Shown piece after piece: positions 5,120-13,551 of a stretch of DNA of 42,419 bases (the stretch's first letter is position 1; every line of letters begins with the position of its first letter). The notes below the pieces were generated by a model. That model was not told the origin of the DNA, did not search any database, and saw only the letters and a list, made by a program, of their open reading frames with translations. Both the position numbers and the translations under genes were made by a program. This DNA is from Methanobacteriota archaeon. GTDB taxonomy: Archaea > Thermoplasmatota > Poseidoniia > Poseidoniales > Thalassarchaeaceae. Location: positions 1-42,419 of the forward strand of contig PATC01000030.1 of NCBI GenBank assembly GCA_002712285.1, read 5' to 3'.

Positions 5120-5267
5120 GAACTACTCACTGCCGAGTAGGGGTTTCAATCATGCGGCTCAAAAATAAGGTCTAGGAGGAATGCAAATGTTCAAGCGAAA
5201 CAACCTGTGACCGCGGGCCGACTGGATGCGCCGCTGTCCATCGAAAAAGGCACCTATATTGCCAACG

Positions 5268-5275
5268 TTAATATC
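5268..5275 (+). promoter_or_regulatory. Putative TATA box of the Rieske/cytochrome b cluster
   Basis: TTAATATC sits 22-29 bases before the ATG at 5298, the spacing expected for an archaeal TATA box with a leaderless transcript starting at or near that ATG. No clear Shine-Dalgarno sequence precedes the ATG, which agrees. The call rests on motif and spacing alone. Confidence 0.4.
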
Positions 5276-5297
5276 CCCTTTTCAGGTCGCTACGAAC

Positions 5298-6164
5298 ATG
5301 AGCATGCCCAGTCCGTGGACTGCGCCAGTTAGGCGCGCCCTGACTCTTTCCTTGCTCATGTTGATTTTGGCCTTCGGGCCATCTTCTGTTGGTGCTTGGC
5401 CAGGAGGTATTGGTTTTGATCAAGATGGCAAGGGCGATGTCGCATTAGCCGGTTGCACATGCCACAACGTAGACCCAAGTGGTTCAGTGACTGTAATCCT
5501 CGATGGTGTGCCATCAGTATACATTGCAGGTGAATCTTACGACATGACAATCCAGGTCATCGGTGGTGCTGAATACCATGAAGGAGGCACTGAATACAGT
5601 GCTGGTTTCTCAATGCGAGTCTCAGAAGGCGCTCTCAGCGCGGGTGAAGGTTCGGAAGACCATGTCATGGCAGCCCCTGAGAACTTCAATGGCCCAGCCA
5701 GCGATGACACACAATCCCTGACCCATACTGATGCTGGAGGCAACCTTGAATCACGTTCTTGGAATATTGTCTGGACTGCCCCAGATACAGAGAGTGGCCC
5801 CGCCACCATTTGGTTGGTTGGCAACTCTGTAAATGGTGATGGACAGCCGGGCCCACAGGACATGTGGAATCGCCTTTCTGCCGTAATCATTGAGGGCACA
5901 GACGATAGCAACCGTCGCGCAGTATTCTCTGGAGATGGCAACATTGAGCCACCAGCTCCACCATCCGATGGACACGGCGACCTTCACCACATGGGAGCGA
6001 AATTTCGCGCCCATTGGCTTGGCCTCCTTGGCTTTGGAGCAGTCATTGTCGTCCTAATCTTCTGTGGCTTCTTCCTCAGATATGGATTCAGTCGCCACTA
6101 TGAGGGCCGAAGCAATCTGCTTCGCCTCCGAATCAAGCATCTACGCAGGGGGGATCAACTGTGA
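5298..6164 (+). CDS. Secreted, membrane-anchored CxCH 'choice-of-anchor'/Reeler-like protein
   Basis: The ATG at 5298 opens a clean signal peptide (basic P-V-R-R then a leucine-rich core ending around S-V-G-A-W), so I prefer it to the ATG at 5226. The mature N-terminus has A-G-C-T-C-H-N, a CxCH motif near the start of a beta-rich domain of roughly 150 residues. This resembles the bacterial Reeler-like 'choice-of-anchor' proteins with an early cysteine/histidine motif. C-x-C-H is not a canonical CxxCH c-heme site; it might bind a metal or heme atypically. The C-terminus has a helix (L-L-G-F-G-A-V-I-V-V-L-I-F) and a basic tail, giving an outside domain anchored in the membrane. It is the first gene of the cluster; its TGA overlaps the next GTG. 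Confidence 0.7.
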   Translation: MSMPSPWTAPVRRALTLSLLMLILAFGPSSVGAWPGGIGFDQDGKGDVALAGCTCHNVDPSGSVTVILDGVPSVYIAGESYDMTIQVIGGAEYHEGGTEYSAGFSMRVSEGALSAGEGSEDHVMAAPENFNGPASDDTQSLTHTDAGGNLESRSWNIVWTAPDTESGPATIWLVGNSVNGDGQPGPQDMWNRLSAVIIEGTDDSNRRAVFSGDGNIEPPAPPSDGHGDLHHMGAKFRAHWLGLLGFGAVIVVLIFCGFFLRYGFSRHYEGRSNLLRLRIKHLRRGDQL

Positions 6165-6610
6165 GGGACAATAAACTCCTGACACTACTCCGTGAAGTCA
6201 AGAGTGGTGCAGTAAGTATCGAAGAAGCTCGTACGGCTCTTGAAGGCGTATCACTAACTGAAGAACAATACACATCTGCCGTCGATCATGGCGTGTTCAA
6301 TGCGCCAAAGCCTGGCACAGTAGTCCGAGCAACAATCTCACCCTCAGCAGAATCTGGGATCATGGTACTCTTCTTTGTCTGGGGCATCTTTTGGACTACT
6401 TATTGGGCGTTCACCTTATCCTACGGACTACTCAATGATTGGGACCAACAGCAACTTGCATTCCATCTCGGGATGGTCCTCATGACTCTGATTATGATGG
6501 GGATTATCTATCTCCGATTCGTACTCCCTGACCTAGTTGTTGTTAAACATCGCAGAAACAAATTCATCCCCGCCAAGGATACTAATTCGTGGAAGAGGTA
6601 CGAATCTTGA
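6161..6610 (+). CDS. Small membrane protein in the Rieske/cytochrome b cluster
   Basis: The 149 residues are not assigned to a family. The first 65 residues are soluble and partly helical (A-V-S-I-E-E-A-R-T-A-L-E-G-V). Two membrane helices follow at about 67-88 and 102-123, and a basic tail ends the protein. It starts at GTG 6161, overlapping the previous stop as GTGA, so the two are translationally coupled. The position between the secreted CxCH protein and the Rieske gene suggests an accessory subunit of the complex. This is inference from synteny. Confidence 0.7.
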   Translation: MRDNKLLTLLREVKSGAVSIEEARTALEGVSLTEEQYTSAVDHGVFNAPKPGTVVRATISPSAESGIMVLFFVWGIFWTTYWAFTLSYGLLNDWDQQQLAFHLGMVLMTLIMMGIIYLRFVLPDLVVVKHRRNKFIPAKDTNSWKRYES

Positions 6611-6617
6611 GGTGATT

Positions 6618-7478
6618 ATGATGGGTCGAAAATTCAAGCTACGTCAAGCACCAGGAGAGGTCAATGAAGTCACTGCTGGTGGCGCACGTCTAATTGATCG
6701 TCGCGATTTTATCCGGCACTCATTCAACAGTGCAGCTGGCGTTATTGCAGCCGCATCACTCGGATCTATCGGTTTTGCAGCCCTACTCATGGGTGTTGCC
6801 GAATCAGATGGCGGCGACTCAGCGGTTCGATTCTGGGTACCCTCTGGAGCTGAAGATACAGCTTGGTATGGCAATTTGCACCTTGAACCCATGACGAAGT
6901 CAGTATTTGAGGCAGAGGCTGCAACCTCTTCAACCGGTATGGCTGGAGCGGCTGGCGTATGGAGTGGACTTCCAGTGACCGTCGTCTACGTCCCTCACGA
7001 AGAGAATGCAGGAAGTGCACCAGTTGAGAACAAACCAAGGTTCCAATATGGTGACGGTTACGATGTATCTGGAGCATACATCGGCTATGGAGGCGAGATG
7101 GAAGAAGACAGTACATATGCGGACCTTGCCATACACAACAACATGGTGATTATCTTCAGCAGATGCCCTCACCTCTGCTGCATACCCGGGTGGCAACTTG
7201 TACCTAACGACTTTACCGCAGATACTTGGTTCCCAGGAGGCACTGACTCAGGCGGGAACAAACTATTCTGCATCTGCCATTCAAGTCGATATGATCCGAC
7301 TATGATTGAGAAAAATCAGAATAGAAACCGAACAAATGGAACTATGTTCGATTACTTTGGCGTCAAGCTAACAGGTGGGCCAGCTCCCGTTGGCATGCCT
7401 CTGATTCCCTTCGAAGTCAACGGAGACATCATTGAGGCGCTCCCGACTTATCTGGACTGGTACACATTTTGCGACTGA
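6618..7478 (+). CDS. Rieske [2Fe-2S] protein (Tat-exported)
   Basis: The 286-residue frame starts at ATG 6618 (or 6621) behind a GAGGTG ribosome site. D-R-R-D-F-I before a hydrophobic helix (A-A-G-V-I-A-A-A-S-L-G) is a twin-arginine signal/anchor. Box I is C183-P-H185-L-C-C188 and box II C218-I-C220-H221-S-S. The cluster ligands should be C183, H185, C218 and H221, with C188-C220 as the usual disulfide. The protein takes one electron from quinol at the outer Qo site of a cytochrome b complex. About 30 residues separate the boxes, more than in most bc1 Rieske proteins. It lies 11 bases before cytochrome b in the same operon. Confidence 0.92.
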   Translation: MMGRKFKLRQAPGEVNEVTAGGARLIDRRDFIRHSFNSAAGVIAAASLGSIGFAALLMGVAESDGGDSAVRFWVPSGAEDTAWYGNLHLEPMTKSVFEAEAATSSTGMAGAAGVWSGLPVTVVYVPHEENAGSAPVENKPRFQYGDGYDVSGAYIGYGGEMEEDSTYADLAIHNNMVIIFSRCPHLCCIPGWQLVPNDFTADTWFPGGTDSGGNKLFCICHSSRYDPTMIEKNQNRNRTNGTMFDYFGVKLTGGPAPVGMPLIPFEVNGDIIEALPTYLDWYTFCD

Positions 7479-7489
7479 GGTGAAAGAAT

Positions 7490-8365
7490 ATGATTGAATC
7501 AGTAGTACTGTGGCTTTTCCTCGCTGTTATTCTTGTTATCGTAGCATTCACACTTCGTAAAGAACGTGAAGAAGTCCCCCGCAAGGAAATTCTGCGCGCA
7601 GTGCAGACCACTACATCAGGAGGTAATGGAATGGGACTTCTTGAGAGGTCTTTCCTTTGGGCATTCTCATGGATGGATACGCGCTTCCGAGTTCAAGACT
7701 ATTGGGCAATGTCTCGCGATGCATACTACAGTATGCACCGTCAGATGCCTCTAACTCATGCTGAGAAATACAAACTACGCATCATCTGGTATTGGTACCC
7801 TCTCTACTGTCTTGGAGGGATTTCATTCCTCGCGTTCATCATTCTCGTAATCACTGGAACTATTCTCGGGATCTACTACGTCCCAGGAGGCATGGGTGAC
7901 CCGACACCGGCATATGCGAGTATGGAGTTCATCATGACCCAACTACCGTTTGGATACATCATCAGATCAATCCATCATTGGACTACACATTTCATGGTAG
8001 CGGCAGTATTCCTCCATATGTGCCGTGTCTACTTCACTGGAGCCTACCGTAACCCACGCGAACTAAACTGGCTCATCGGCGTTGCTCTGATGTTCTTCAC
8101 AATCTTCTTCGGATATTCCGGATATCTTCTTCCTTGGGATGCACTTGCCTTCGGAGCAGCTACCATCGGAATCAACATGGCAAATGCGACACCTTTGATC
8201 GGCCCTTGGGTCGCAACAGCAATGTTTGGCGGCAGCACTCTAACTTATCAGGCGGTGACCAGAATGTACTTCATCCACGTGTTTATCCTACCGGTTCTAG
8301 TAACTACCCTAATCATCGTCCACCTGTTTATCGTATGGGTACAAGGGGTTGCGGAGCCGCACTGA
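7490..8365 (+). CDS. Cytochrome b, b6-type N-terminal subunit
   Basis: The 291 residues have an N-terminal extension of about 95 residues (one extra helix, then a soluble stretch) before a four-helix cytochrome b6 core. Heme ligands are H162/H176 on one helix (R-S-I-H ... L-H-M-C-R-V-Y) and H263/H278 on the other. The 15-residue step between H263 and H278 is the b6f, not the bc1, pattern. Y-C107-L-G-G-I aligns with Y-C35-L-G-G-I of chloroplast b6, the cysteine that binds heme ci covalently. The split into b6 plus subunit IV (next gene, 14 bases on) also follows the b6f layout. The protein should oxidise quinol together with the Rieske protein. Confidence 0.92.
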   Translation: MIESVVLWLFLAVILVIVAFTLRKEREEVPRKEILRAVQTTTSGGNGMGLLERSFLWAFSWMDTRFRVQDYWAMSRDAYYSMHRQMPLTHAEKYKLRIIWYWYPLYCLGGISFLAFIILVITGTILGIYYVPGGMGDPTPAYASMEFIMTQLPFGYIIRSIHHWTTHFMVAAVFLHMCRVYFTGAYRNPRELNWLIGVALMFFTIFFGYSGYLLPWDALAFGAATIGINMANATPLIGPWVATAMFGGSTLTYQAVTRMYFIHVFILPVLVTTLIIVHLFIVWVQGVAEPH

Positions 8366-8379
8366 TAGGAGTTTGAAGC

Positions 8380-11205
8380 ATGGGAATTATCGAACGTCTC
8401 GGCCGGGTTGCAGACACTTATGTCAGCGAACGCGATCAACTCATAGAGGCAGAACAGGAGCGTAGACGTGTATTTACTGGTCATGCATTCTGGCCTCAAG
8501 AAGTACTCAGAGATACAATCATTGCAATGTCTATCCTGATGGTTCTCTGCTTCTACGCATGGTTAATCCCTCCACCACTCCACAATGCTGCAGATCCCTT
8601 TGCTCAAGCTGGATTCGTATTTCCTGATTGGTATGTACTGTTCTCATATGGATACCTCCGACTTGGAGAATATCTCCCTCAATTCGATATCCCTCTCCCT
8701 GAAGCAATTGGGAACTTCTTCGGAACTCCAATTATTTCATGGAATGCAGGCTGGTGGGGCGCTGCAATCACAGGCATCCCAGTAATGATACTCGCATTAC
8801 CCCCATTCATTCCCGGTAGAGAGAAGCGGGGTGTAGAAGACCCATGGTTTGCTACTGCTGGAATGGTGTATTTGGCTCACGTGTGGTTCATCTCTGTATA
8901 TTCAATCAATATCTTCCTTGAACTCTATGGAAAGAATCGAACTGATTTTTGCCAAATGAATTCTCATGCAGGACTATCTTGTGGAACAAGATCACCATGG
9001 ATTGCGGAGGTGTTCAACAGCATACCCTGGGTCCTCACCGGAGTGTTCATTTTCGCCGTTGTCTACTTCGGCATCCGTTGGTTCATGGTACAAACACAAG
9101 GTGCTAGGATTACTCCAAACAGTAATCGAAACGTTGCCTTTGGATCACTCCTCGTCGCCATACTACTCTGTTCAGTCACTTGGCCGGTCTACGATAATGG
9201 ATTTTGGGACATGGGTGGATTCGGCGCTATGCAAGACGTTGAGGAACTTGAAACGCTACGAAGCCAGCCGAGCGACACACTCGTAGATCTTCGAGAAAGT
9301 GAATATGCAGACCATATGCTTGGAATGTGTCTAACTTACAGTTCATCGTCCGATTCTAAAGCATGGGATGACGACCACTTTGCGGATGGATCGTGGGCCT
9401 ACAGCGACTTCTGTGTAATGCCTGCAAGAGAGTTCTCTAATTGGGGCATTTACCAACCCACACAGGAGTATGTTATTGACTTCAATGGAGCGAATAATCA
9501 CGTCGATACTGAAAGCGGTAGAAATGGCCTGTTTTCCGCATCCGAATACCCTGGTTCAATTGATGGCTCACCTGTCCTCTTCACATATTCAGGCACAATG
9601 AATGTGCCCAATCTTGGCGTAGATACCCTTCAAGTGGATGTAGGTTGTAATGTCCGAACAACAATCCGCAATGTAGGCGAGCACACCATCTCACTAATTG
9701 TCAAAGACATAGCAGGTGCAATAATCATCGAAATGGATTCCTGCACTGCTCAAACACTGAAACTCGCCTCTGGTGCCGACTACATGCTTGACTACAGCAT
9801 CGAAACAATCGGACTCAATGACAGTGGGAATGTAATCACAGATGTGTCTATCCAAGCTTTCCAACCTCTAGTCCTCGATGCTGATGGACTCGCAGTCAAC
9901 CTCTCCGACTCTACAGCACTCAACCTATTGACAGGTAGTTCGATTTACAGTGCGTCCAGCCTGACAGATCACACGCTTGAGAACCCGACATATCTCAAGA
10001 ATCCAAAGAGTCTTGATGCGAAACTTACCTATTCTCTAGTCATCCCATGCCTTGGTGTCGGTGCTCTTGTCTTCTTCTTGATGCGCAGCATGGCCCGTGG
10101 ATACGAATATGAGATGAACAAATGCTACGGATGCGATTTGTGTGATGATGCCTGTCCTGTCCGTCTATTCAATGCCGGTGACAAGTTGAACATCATCTAC
10201 AACTCATGGAATAACGAAGATGACGGCGTACCGTTGTACTCTTGTTTGACCTGTACTGCGTGCACCAATGCGTGTCCACAGCTCGTTGACTACGACTCCT
10301 ACATCGATATTCGCCGAAACCTCATCGTGGGCGGACCACCAGCAGCAGAAATCCCCCACACTATCCTTCAGGCTGTCATTAGAGCAGAAGCAGAGGAAGA
10401 TGCAAGCGACCAATTCGTTGCAGTTGATGATTACCCAATAGACTCCACAGTTGGCTACTACCCTGGCTGTGTTGACTACATTGACCAAGAGATGATTTTC
10501 AGCCATGTAAATGAAGGTACAATGGATCTTGGTCAGACCACAGACGCCGCTTTCACTCTCTTTGAAGATGCAGGCATGGATGTGGCTTACCTAGGACGTG
10601 ATTTCTTGAAGTGTTGTGGCCATGACCAGAAATGGCAAGGCATGACCGAAGTGTTTGAGAAACTCAAGGCATACAATCAGAAGAAACTCGGTGAAAGTGG
10701 TATTGAGACACTTGTGACATCTTGTGCAGAGTGTTTCCGTACCTTCGCCATGGATTACGAACTTGATGACCTCAAGGTCATGCATACTACAGAGTATCTT
10801 ATTGAGTCAGGCTATCAATTCGAAGCCGCTGTTCCAGAAGGTACGACTGTTACCTACCACGACCCATGTCGACTTGGTCGCCAAATGAATCTCTATGATG
10901 AACCTCGAGAACTCGTTCAGCGCATCGAAGGTGTGGACCTTGTTGAGATGGAACATCACGGAGAAGATGCTCTCTGCTGTGGTGTTTCCTCAATGATGTC
11001 ATGTAATGAGAATTCACGTGCACTCCGGATTGAGCGTTTCGAAGAAGTTCGCGATACTGGTGCAGAGATTATGCTCACAACCTGTCCCAAATGTGTGTCT
11101 CACTTTGAATGTCTGAAGTTCGAAGGAGATCCAAGACATGACTTTGAGATCCTCGATGTGGTGTCCTTCCTCGCACGCCAGATAGAAGCAAAGAAACAGG
11201 CCTAA
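8380..11205 (+). CDS. Fusion: cytochrome b subunit IV + ectodomain + HdrD/GlpC-like Fe-S module
   Basis: One 941-residue frame. Residues 1-180 are subunit IV-like with P82-D-W-Y85 at the place of the Qo P-E-W-Y motif. Two further helices (about 213-236 and 250-268) and an extracytoplasmic beta-rich stretch (about 270-555) follow, then a helix at about 558-577. Next come two [4Fe-4S] motifs, C582-x2-C585-x2-C588-x3-C592-P and C622-x2-C625-x2-C628-x3-C632-P. Two CCG domains end the protein, with C745-C746-G, C782-x2-C785, C830, C866-C867-G and C902-x2-C905. This order (2[4Fe-4S] then two CCG) is that of HdrD, GlpC and related oxidoreductases. Six predicted helices put the Fe-S part in the cytoplasm. 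Function is inferred: electron exchange between a cytoplasmic partner and the b-heme/quinone core. Confidence 0.9.
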   Translation: MGIIERLGRVADTYVSERDQLIEAEQERRRVFTGHAFWPQEVLRDTIIAMSILMVLCFYAWLIPPPLHNAADPFAQAGFVFPDWYVLFSYGYLRLGEYLPQFDIPLPEAIGNFFGTPIISWNAGWWGAAITGIPVMILALPPFIPGREKRGVEDPWFATAGMVYLAHVWFISVYSINIFLELYGKNRTDFCQMNSHAGLSCGTRSPWIAEVFNSIPWVLTGVFIFAVVYFGIRWFMVQTQGARITPNSNRNVAFGSLLVAILLCSVTWPVYDNGFWDMGGFGAMQDVEELETLRSQPSDTLVDLRESEYADHMLGMCLTYSSSSDSKAWDDDHFADGSWAYSDFCVMPAREFSNWGIYQPTQEYVIDFNGANNHVDTESGRNGLFSASEYPGSIDGSPVLFTYSGTMNVPNLGVDTLQVDVGCNVRTTIRNVGEHTISLIVKDIAGAIIIEMDSCTAQTLKLASGADYMLDYSIETIGLNDSGNVITDVSIQAFQPLVLDADGLAVNLSDSTALNLLTGSSIYSASSLTDHTLENPTYLKNPKSLDAKLTYSLVIPCLGVGALVFFLMRSMARGYEYEMNKCYGCDLCDDACPVRLFNAGDKLNIIYNSWNNEDDGVPLYSCLTCTACTNACPQLVDYDSYIDIRRNLIVGGPPAAEIPHTILQAVIRAEAEEDASDQFVAVDDYPIDSTVGYYPGCVDYIDQEMIFSHVNEGTMDLGQTTDAAFTLFEDAGMDVAYLGRDFLKCCGHDQKWQGMTEVFEKLKAYNQKKLGESGIETLVTSCAECFRTFAMDYELDDLKVMHTTEYLIESGYQFEAAVPEGTTVTYHDPCRLGRQMNLYDEPRELVQRIEGVDLVEMEHHGEDALCCGVSSMMSCNENSRALRIERFEEVRDTGAEIMLTTCPKCVSHFECLKFEGDPRHDFEILDVVSFLARQIEAKKQA

Positions 11206-11208
11206 TAC

Positions 11209-11493
11209 TCAGAATAGGGCCACTATTAGCGACCATAACGAGAGTATCGCAGTGATACCTACCCCCCACCATGTCCATTGAGCCGCCCGTTTGTGCCCAT
11301 AAGCAAGAACTGTCAACCAAAGGTAGAATCCAATCTGTGCTTGGCAAACAAAGGCCAACCAACCTACACTGAATCGCAGTTGGGTGACCAGCAATAACCA
11401 GAGAAGTGGGCCTAATGTAAGCATTAGAATCGAGAGGAAATCGTTCTGCCAACTCTCCGGTTCTACTGGAACATTGGACTCTGAAACCTCCAT
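11209..11493 (-). CDS. Small membrane protein
   Basis: The preferred start is the ATG at 11493, giving 94 residues (a TTG at 11508 is possible). Three hydrophobic segments are visible: L-S-I-L-M-L-T-L-G-P-L-L-W-L-L-L, W-L-A-F-V-C-Q-A-Q-I-G-F-Y-L-W-L and W-W-G-V-G-I-T-A-I-L-S-L-W-S-L-I. No family was recognised. It sits between the fusion gene and the ferredoxin but on the opposite strand, ending 3 bases from the fusion gene's stop. TAATATTT about 20 bases upstream of the ATG could be a TATA box for a leaderless transcript. Confidence 0.6.
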   Translation of the reverse strand: MEVSESNVPVEPESWQNDFLSILMLTLGPLLWLLLVTQLRFSVGWLAFVCQAQIGFYLWLTVLAYGHKRAAQWTWWGVGITAILSLWSLIVALF

Positions 11494-11576
11494 GATTAGG
11501 GCAATCAAATATTACAAATGAAACCATCCAAGTATGCCAAGCCTTGAGAAGAGGGGGGCATGTCCCAAATACATAC

Positions 11577-11909
11577 ATGGCGAGTCGAGACGAGGTAGCC
11601 TTGCGGAGAACGGATGTTCAGCGCCGCATCCGCATCGCCTTGAACGCAGCCAAGGCAGAGGAACGCGCCAGTGTCAAAGGTGGGGAAACAACCGTCGCAT
11701 TCGTAAAAGAAGAGCAATGTATTGGTTGCGACCAATGCACAATCGTCTGTGACGACGACGCAATCGAACTCTACGATAAACCACTAGCGAGTCCTCTGAT
11801 GCAAGTCGATATCAATCGTAAAGCGAAGATTCTGCGTGACCCATGTACTGGTTGCCGACTCTGTGTCTTTGCCTGCCCAACAGACGCGATTATCATGATT
11901 GACCGATGA
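11577..11909 (+). CDS. 2[4Fe-4S] ferredoxin
   Basis: The ATG at 11577 gives 110 residues. The N-terminal 45 residues are helical and charged, then two clusters follow: C-I-G-C-D-Q-C-T-I-V-C and C-T-G-C-R-L-C-V-F-A-C-P. The first lacks the usual proline after the last cysteine (it is followed by Asp-Asp-Asp), which may tune its potential. Such ferredoxins carry low-potential electrons in the cytoplasm. It lies downstream of the cytochrome b/HdrD fusion on the same strand, so it is a reasonable candidate partner for the Fe-S module. The link is positional only. Confidence 0.88.
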   Translation: MASRDEVALRRTDVQRRIRIALNAAKAEERASVKGGETTVAFVKEEQCIGCDQCTIVCDDDAIELYDKPLASPLMQVDINRKAKILRDPCTGCRLCVFACPTDAIIMIDR

Positions 11910-13260: not shown

Positions 13261-13551
13261 ATGCCAGAGGAGCCCGAAGAGCCAATCCGGTTCGGAGCCG
13301 AATTTGGACCTTACAGATCTAGTCGCTCAAGTGGCGTTTCTCTTTCCACATTCAAGACTCTTGTCTGGACATCAAATGTGGGTGGACTAATCCTGATGGT
13401 AATAGGATTAGAACTGTTAATCGTAACTCATGCATACACTTGGGCGATGATTTGTTTCATCGCAGGTGTCGCAATCGCACTCTTCCCTTCAAACTATGAG
13501 ATTGTAGGTATGGAACCCGAAGAAGCTCAATCAGAATCGGATTCGGAATGA
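13261..13551 (+). CDS. Small membrane protein with two helices
   Basis: The 96 residues have a Glu/Pro-rich N-terminus, two hydrophobic helices (G-G-L-I-L-M-V-I-G-L-E-L-L-I-V and A-M-I-C-F-I-A-G-V-A-I-A-L-F) and an acidic Ser/Glu-rich tail. Both termini are probably cytoplasmic. The family is unknown. It is divergent from the glycosyltransferase across about 110 bases and overlaps the 3' end of the convergent glutamate-cysteine ligase by 25 bases. No ribosome site precedes the ATG. Confidence 0.6.
   Translation: MPEEPEEPIRFGAEFGPYRSSRSSGVSLSTFKTLVWTSNVGGLILMVIGLELLIVTHAYTWAMICFIAGVAIALFPSNYEIVGMEPEEAQSESDSE

Follow-up and report, generated by a model that had tools for sequence, protein, structure and literature searches.

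Fusion of a subunit IV-like protein to an HdrC/HdrB-like module in the Rieske/cytochrome b operon of Poseidoniales

Poseidoniales (Marine Group II) rank among the commonest archaea in surface seawater. Published reports describe their complex III as non-canonical, so far without explanation. These organisms, described as aerobic heterotrophs, carry cytochrome b and Rieske proteins without a canonical bc1 complex, and an orphan RnfB (PMC6336850). We analysed a window of 42,419 nucleotides, contig PATC01000030.1 of assembly GCA_002712285.1 (1.7 Mb, 74% complete; family Thalassarchaeaceae). In this window, one gene was predicted to join a quinol-oxidising cytochrome b subunit to an HdrD-like Fe-S protein. 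Is the join real and, if so, with what might such a protein exchange electrons? A conserved single-chain link of this kind would show a meeting point of cytoplasmic electrons and the quinone pool.

Organisation of the fused protein

The gene and its parts are as follows.

8380..11205, plus strand: fused subunit IV–ectodomain–HdrC/HdrB-like protein, 941 aa (open frame; kept in both Poseidoniales families)
8380..9105, plus strand: subunit IV (PetD-like) part, residues 1–242 (hhalign 99.8% against stand-alone subunit IV proteins, which match PF00032)
9190..10023, plus strand: extracytoplasmic domain, residues 271–548, GOLD/jelly-roll-like beta sandwich (AlphaFold2, Foldseek, alignment)
10123..10275, plus strand: HdrC-like part, two CX2CX2CX3C motifs for 2[4Fe-4S], C582–C592 and C622–C632 (Pfam; all eight cysteines invariant)
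10447..10749, plus strand: HdrB-like CCG domain 1, C697, C745, C746, C782 and C785 (Pfam CCG x2; Foldseek to HdrB, LutA and EtfD)
10849..11106, plus strand: HdrB-like CCG domain 2, C830, C866, C867, C902 and C905 (Pfam CCG 824–909; alignment)

The frame at 8380–11205 runs for 941 codons, from ATG to stop, without interruption. This agrees with the original prediction. There was no Pfam match to Cytochrom_B_C on the fused protein of the window or on 52 orthologues. Homology to subunit IV was established stepwise, by Pfam searches of homologues and then by profile–profile comparison. Stand-alone subunit IV homologues match PF00032 (Cytochrom_B_C) at 31–42 bits, and shorter fused homologues from families f21 and f24 do so at 22.5 and 39.3 bits (cut-off 20.7 bits). 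Using hhalign, the N-terminal part of the Poseidoniales protein aligned with stand-alone subunit IV at 99.8% probability over 206 columns, with the PDWY motif in register. This bears out the predicted subunit IV helices with a PDWY Qo motif, which occupies residues 82–85 (positions 8623–8634). We take this motif to be of the menaquinol-oxidising type.

Hydropathy analysis identified six helices, at residues 46–64, 123–141, 158–176, 214–232, 252–270 and 549–567. One extra weak peak falls within the folded ectodomain. By helix count, the ectodomain lies on the outer and the Fe-S module on the cytoplasmic side, as had been proposed. Four cysteines of the ectodomain (C317, C345, C423 and C455) are invariant in the orthologue alignment. 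AlphaFold2 predicted a confident beta sandwich for residues ~370–510 (pLDDT about 80–89), which Foldseek matched, with modest scores, to GOLD-like and other jelly-roll folds. The ectodomain showed no cofactor motif. The domain is missing from the f21, f24 and f3 homologues. In one other genome (G078, L205:6997-8769) Pfam places a Laminin_G_3 domain within subunit IV, apparently at a place comparable to that of the Poseidoniales ectodomain. The AlphaFold2 model of the whole fused protein was poor (mean pLDDT 59.7, pTM 0.41) and that of the Fe-S/CCG module alone was middling (pLDDT 62.2, pTM 0.66).

The C-terminal half carries the full Hdr ligand set, 2[4Fe-4S] plus two complete CCG motifs, in line with the domains first proposed. 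Pfam matched CCG in two stretches (83.6 bits) and also recovered a 4Fe-4S dicluster domain, all above cut-off. All 18 cluster cysteines are present; 16 are invariant in 53 orthologues, and each of the remaining two differs in a single sequence of the alignment. The best curated family match is TfrB, HdrD-like in its C-terminal part. By sequence the closest solved relative is 9ojn (M. smegmatis EtfD per Foldseek). Searches with the module fold also placed M. smegmatis EtfD closest, with HdrB and LutA among the matches. A plasmid search gave matches to the Fe-S/CCG half only.

The module could be a redox sensor, or a structural relic, with no steady electron flow. Related complexes do manage without it. 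Conversely, its 18 ligands are near-strictly conserved, and the module is 76–96% identical across the family, compared with 64–94% for the whole protein. We consider a sensor or relic very unlikely.

Distribution of the fusion

A match to the fused protein was found in all 59 relatives searched, which represent 18 genera. In 36 the match is full length and in one stretch. A further 16 contain two match stretches within one open frame of about 920–950 aa. Nearly all of the 59 thus encode the protein in one frame. In six the match is broken by contig ends. The remaining relative (G017; L217, G017:C26) has a frame-breaking deletion in the ectodomain, which probably reflects a sequence error or else a damaged gene; its congeners are intact. 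Separate genes, with a stop codon at about 9200–10100, were not found as the normal arrangement. The fusion occurs in both Poseidoniales families, including a single-contig genome (G036), and several of the loci are presumably from single-cell genomes. An assembly artefact joining two genes is thus refuted, and its probability is practically nil; the identical join is present in dozens of independent assemblies. The fusion is real, old and conserved throughout Poseidoniales. The best 80 matches in a scan of named genomes are close relatives; our distribution survey covers Thermoplasmatota, and the sample of this phylum gives the same picture as the 59 relatives. We found no prior description of the fusion in the open literature, a search whose coverage mostly excludes subscription journals.

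Two further Thermoplasmatota families, f21 and f24, have the fusion without the ectodomain insert. The arrangement is different in f3, a sister family within the class: there, subunit IV carries only the [4Fe-4S] half, and a second, overlapping gene encodes the CCG half. CCG site 1 of this HdrB-like protein (L129–L133) lacks one cysteine, in two ways (C746S or C785G) in two genera. In families f4, f14, f20, f22, f30, f32 and f38, the PetB protein of the operon is accompanied by a stand-alone subunit IV, and the module is absent. The conserved tail of stand-alone subunit IV (e.g. GYEFNLNRTYYKVR) aligns with the linker of the fused form, GYEYEMNKCYGC. The PetB tree is compatible with either gain of the fusion or loss of the module.

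A two-helix membrane protein is also shared between the two kinds of lineage.

13261..13551, plus strand: small two-helix membrane protein (iterated HMM; its homologue in unfused lineages is the membrane part of two-helix/glutaredoxin proteins)

In seven of nine unfused loci, from five families, the two-helix subunit bears a glutaredoxin-like domain (PF05768, which Pfam confirmed in all four that were tested). In module-bearing lineages, including that of the window, the two-helix protein has no such domain. No locus among those compared has both module and glutaredoxin.

The Rieske/b operon and related systems

The fused gene belongs to an operon.

5226..6164, plus strand: choice-of-anchor V protein carrying a CxCH motif; its gene opens the operon (NF041895, 84 bits; conserved order)
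6161..6610, plus strand: DUF7318-like small membrane protein (PF24002, 24.7 bits, just below cut-off; conserved order)
6618..7478, plus strand: Rieske protein (TIGR01416 below cut-off; two cysteine-histidine motifs)
7490..8365, plus strand: PetB-like cytochrome b (Pfam Cytochrome_B, 139 bits; motif scan)

These four genes are followed by that of the fused protein and, beyond a small reverse-strand frame, by a two-[4Fe-4S] ferredoxin gene. As far as contigs reach, this order is constant across Thalassarchaeaceae loci. The proposed attachment to a Rieske-type complex is supported by this operon and its conserved order. Three marks of a b6f-type complex are found in the window: a four-histidine cytochrome b with b6 spacing, an adjacent subunit IV with a Qo motif, and a Rieske gene. 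A motif scan of the PetB-like protein identified the four b-heme histidines, with b6-type spacing, and Cys107 within YCLGG. We take this cysteine to be at the heme ci/cn cysteine position of b6f, and heme ci would presumably form there. The cysteine is found in f1, f2, f21, f24, one f3 genus and f30. In the other f3 genus the position is Ser; in stand-alone lineages whose contig covers the site it is Ser, Thr or Ala, except in f30. Thus, every module-bearing lineage has the heme-ci cysteine except one f3 genus. This correlation rests essentially on one split of the tree and may reflect descent only.

We compared the complex with known systems. It resembles cytochrome b6f (PetB/PetD/Rieske) in its split cytochrome b, b6-type histidine spacing, subunit IV Qo motif and heme-ci cysteine position. 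Conversely, the Poseidoniales subunit IV bears an HdrCB-like module and an ectodomain, and has PDWY where b6f has PEWY. No cytochrome f gene was seen in the operon. Like HdrDE and HdrBC, it has the motifs for 2[4Fe-4S] together with two CCG sites that are complete and include the bridging cysteines. However, the b-type partner is a Rieske/b complex rather than the small cytochrome HdrE, and no HdrA was found in the eight Poseidoniales genomes tested. We know of no CoM/CoB substrate for the Poseidoniales protein. The b6-like complexes of anammox bacteria (Kuste4569-4574 and Kustd1480-1485) also combine a b6-like core with an inner-side Fe-S wire, proposed to divert bifurcated electrons (PMC12954380). 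In those complexes the addition is an NAD(P) oxidoreductase, whereas here it is an HdrCB module fused to subunit IV.

The original prediction held that in known systems the Fe-S/CCG protein is a separate polypeptide. As worded, this does not hold; EtfD/FadF-type proteins are single-chain fusions of the same kind of module with a b-heme membrane domain (PMC13083937), and a paralogue of this type is present in most Poseidoniales. Hence, the Rieske/b partner is new but membrane fusion as such is not. In EtfD/FadF/EMO, whose one chain also combines a membrane domain with an HdrD-like module, the membrane part is NarI-like; here, by hhalign, it is subunit IV. The ligands also differ. EtfD has Thr539 in place of one Hdr cysteine, and a capping residue, His583 (PMC13083937). 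At the equivalent positions the window protein has Cys (Cys746) and Glu (CAEC), the Hdr state, and retains both bridging cysteines. The EtfD-type paralogues in these archaea show Ser and His (CPHC) there, the EtfD state. In the module tree, which has some long branches, Rieske/b-linked modules form a single clade (100/99), separate from these paralogues. Outside the Rieske/b clade, too, several CCG proteins retain all ten cysteines.

Candidate partners and direction of electron flow

A ferredoxin gene lies close to the fused gene.

11544..11909, plus strand: two-[4Fe-4S] ferredoxin, RnfB-like, the proposed cytoplasmic partner (Pfam Fer4_21; gene linkage)

Homologues of this ferredoxin adjoin the fused gene in Thalassarchaeaceae loci; in the window it lies beyond a small reverse-strand frame. 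In nine of ten Poseidoniaceae tested, the ferredoxin gene is ~0.3–1.5 kb from the fused gene, on the other strand; in G036 the distance is ~14 kb. At the equivalent place, families f3 and f21 encode a longer ferredoxin of the poly-[4Fe-4S] type. In f24 the gene directly after the fused gene encodes an HdrA-N/FlpD-like protein rather than a ferredoxin. A member of the 2-oxoacid:ferredoxin oxidoreductase family was found in 15 of 16 genomes tested, and reduced ferredoxin is therefore expected.

Taken together, we favour a b6f-like Rieske/b complex with a built-in cytoplasmic electron port, the module being the port on the inner side (probability about 0.7). We tentatively suggest, at slightly under even odds, that the port serves for input, the module carrying electrons from the linked ferredoxin to heme ci and on to menaquinone. 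The outer part of the complex would carry out ordinary quinol oxidation at the Qo site. On the inner side, a chain of [4Fe-4S]-[4Fe-4S]-CCG cluster-CCG cluster, if the predicted clusters form, would connect the inner b heme and the covalent Qi-site heme (ci) to a carrier in the cytoplasm. The 2-oxoacid:ferredoxin oxidoreductases would reduce the linked ferredoxin, which would then give electrons via the module to heme ci and menaquinone. A parallel is cyclic photosynthetic electron flow, in which ferredoxin is a proposed electron donor to b6f. Whether electrons enter or leave at heme ci has long been debated for plant b6f, and the Poseidoniales complex would be a natural case in which to test this.

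Input from ferredoxin would be downhill, with no need for unusual heme potentials, whereas output to a disulphide would need bifurcation. In favour of input we also count the retention of fusion and operon in both families, the single clade of Rieske/b-linked modules apart from the EtfD type, and the distribution of the heme-ci cysteine. The same applies to the ferredoxin gene, which in both families has stayed next to or close to the fused gene, to the poly-[4Fe-4S] ferredoxin that takes its place in f3 and f21, and to the oxidoreductases. The published orphan RnfB and non-canonical complex III (PMC6336850) point the same way. Against input we count the two complete CCG sites, which exceed the needs of an electron wire, the HdrA-N/FlpD-like neighbour in f24, and the distant ferredoxin gene of G036.

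Electrons might instead leave through the port. Quinol bifurcation, driven by the high-potential Rieske branch, would send a low-potential electron via the module to a cytoplasmic disulphide or other acceptor, in an Hdr-like manner. The Hdr state of both noncubane ligand sets, with Cys for EtfD Thr539, Glu for His583 and bridging cysteines kept (PMC13083937), speaks for such a role. Most module-less operons carry a glutaredoxin domain on the homologous two-helix subunit, and no locus compared has it together with the module, a hint that thiols may react at the cytoplasmic face. A similar mode of action has been put forward for anammox Rieske/b complexes that have an NAD(P) oxidoreductase on the inner side (PMC12954380). 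However, ferredoxin as acceptor would be strongly uphill, and a disulphide substrate is not known for these archaea. Moreover, f3 has lost a cysteine of site 1 in two different ways, and the ten cysteines are not confined to the Rieske/b clade. We regard output as possible but doubtful. A fuller version is unlikely: in this, the low-potential branch of the Q-cycle, heme ci and the Hdr-type cluster pair of a quinol-bifurcating complex would provide the cytoplasm of an aerobic archaeon with a thiol or another reductant, and glutaredoxin would be the counterpart in related lineages. Electron bifurcation into the module, raised by the original prediction, may occur but has no direct support.

We also considered bifurcation at an HdrA-type flavin. 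This was rejected, since none of eight Poseidoniales genomes tested had a match to the f24 HdrA-N/FlpD-like protein. The latter (G092, L151:757-2292; 511 aa) combines an HdrA-like N-terminus, an FAD-type motif, ferredoxin motifs and an FlpD/MvhD domain.

Finally, the module could act as an ETF dehydrogenase, feeding fatty-acid electrons into the complex in an EtfD-like way. Among solved structures, M. smegmatis EtfD is nearest in sequence and, where the module is concerned, in fold; ETF genes were found in every genome tested. However, ETF has its own quinone route in Poseidoniales. Most have a separate EtfD-type fusion with EtfD-type ligands, and the fused module sits in a different clade. 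In the window's own genus, a search of relatives gave no match to the EtfD-type gene, and FixC-FixX occupies the place that this gene has in G036. On these grounds the ETF dehydrogenase role, which we judge highly improbable, was rejected.

The intervals concerned lie between the mevalonate kinase and cysS genes. FixC-FixX is found there in the window's genus (L173:3361-5274, G000:C30) and the EtfD-type gene in G036 (L155:6046-8082). FixC-FixX likewise adjoins cysS in G011. In the window, the frame separating the fused gene from the ferredoxin gene (11209–11508, minus strand) encodes a hydrophobic 99-aa sequence, with matches of 29–95% identity in some Thalassarchaeaceae loci.
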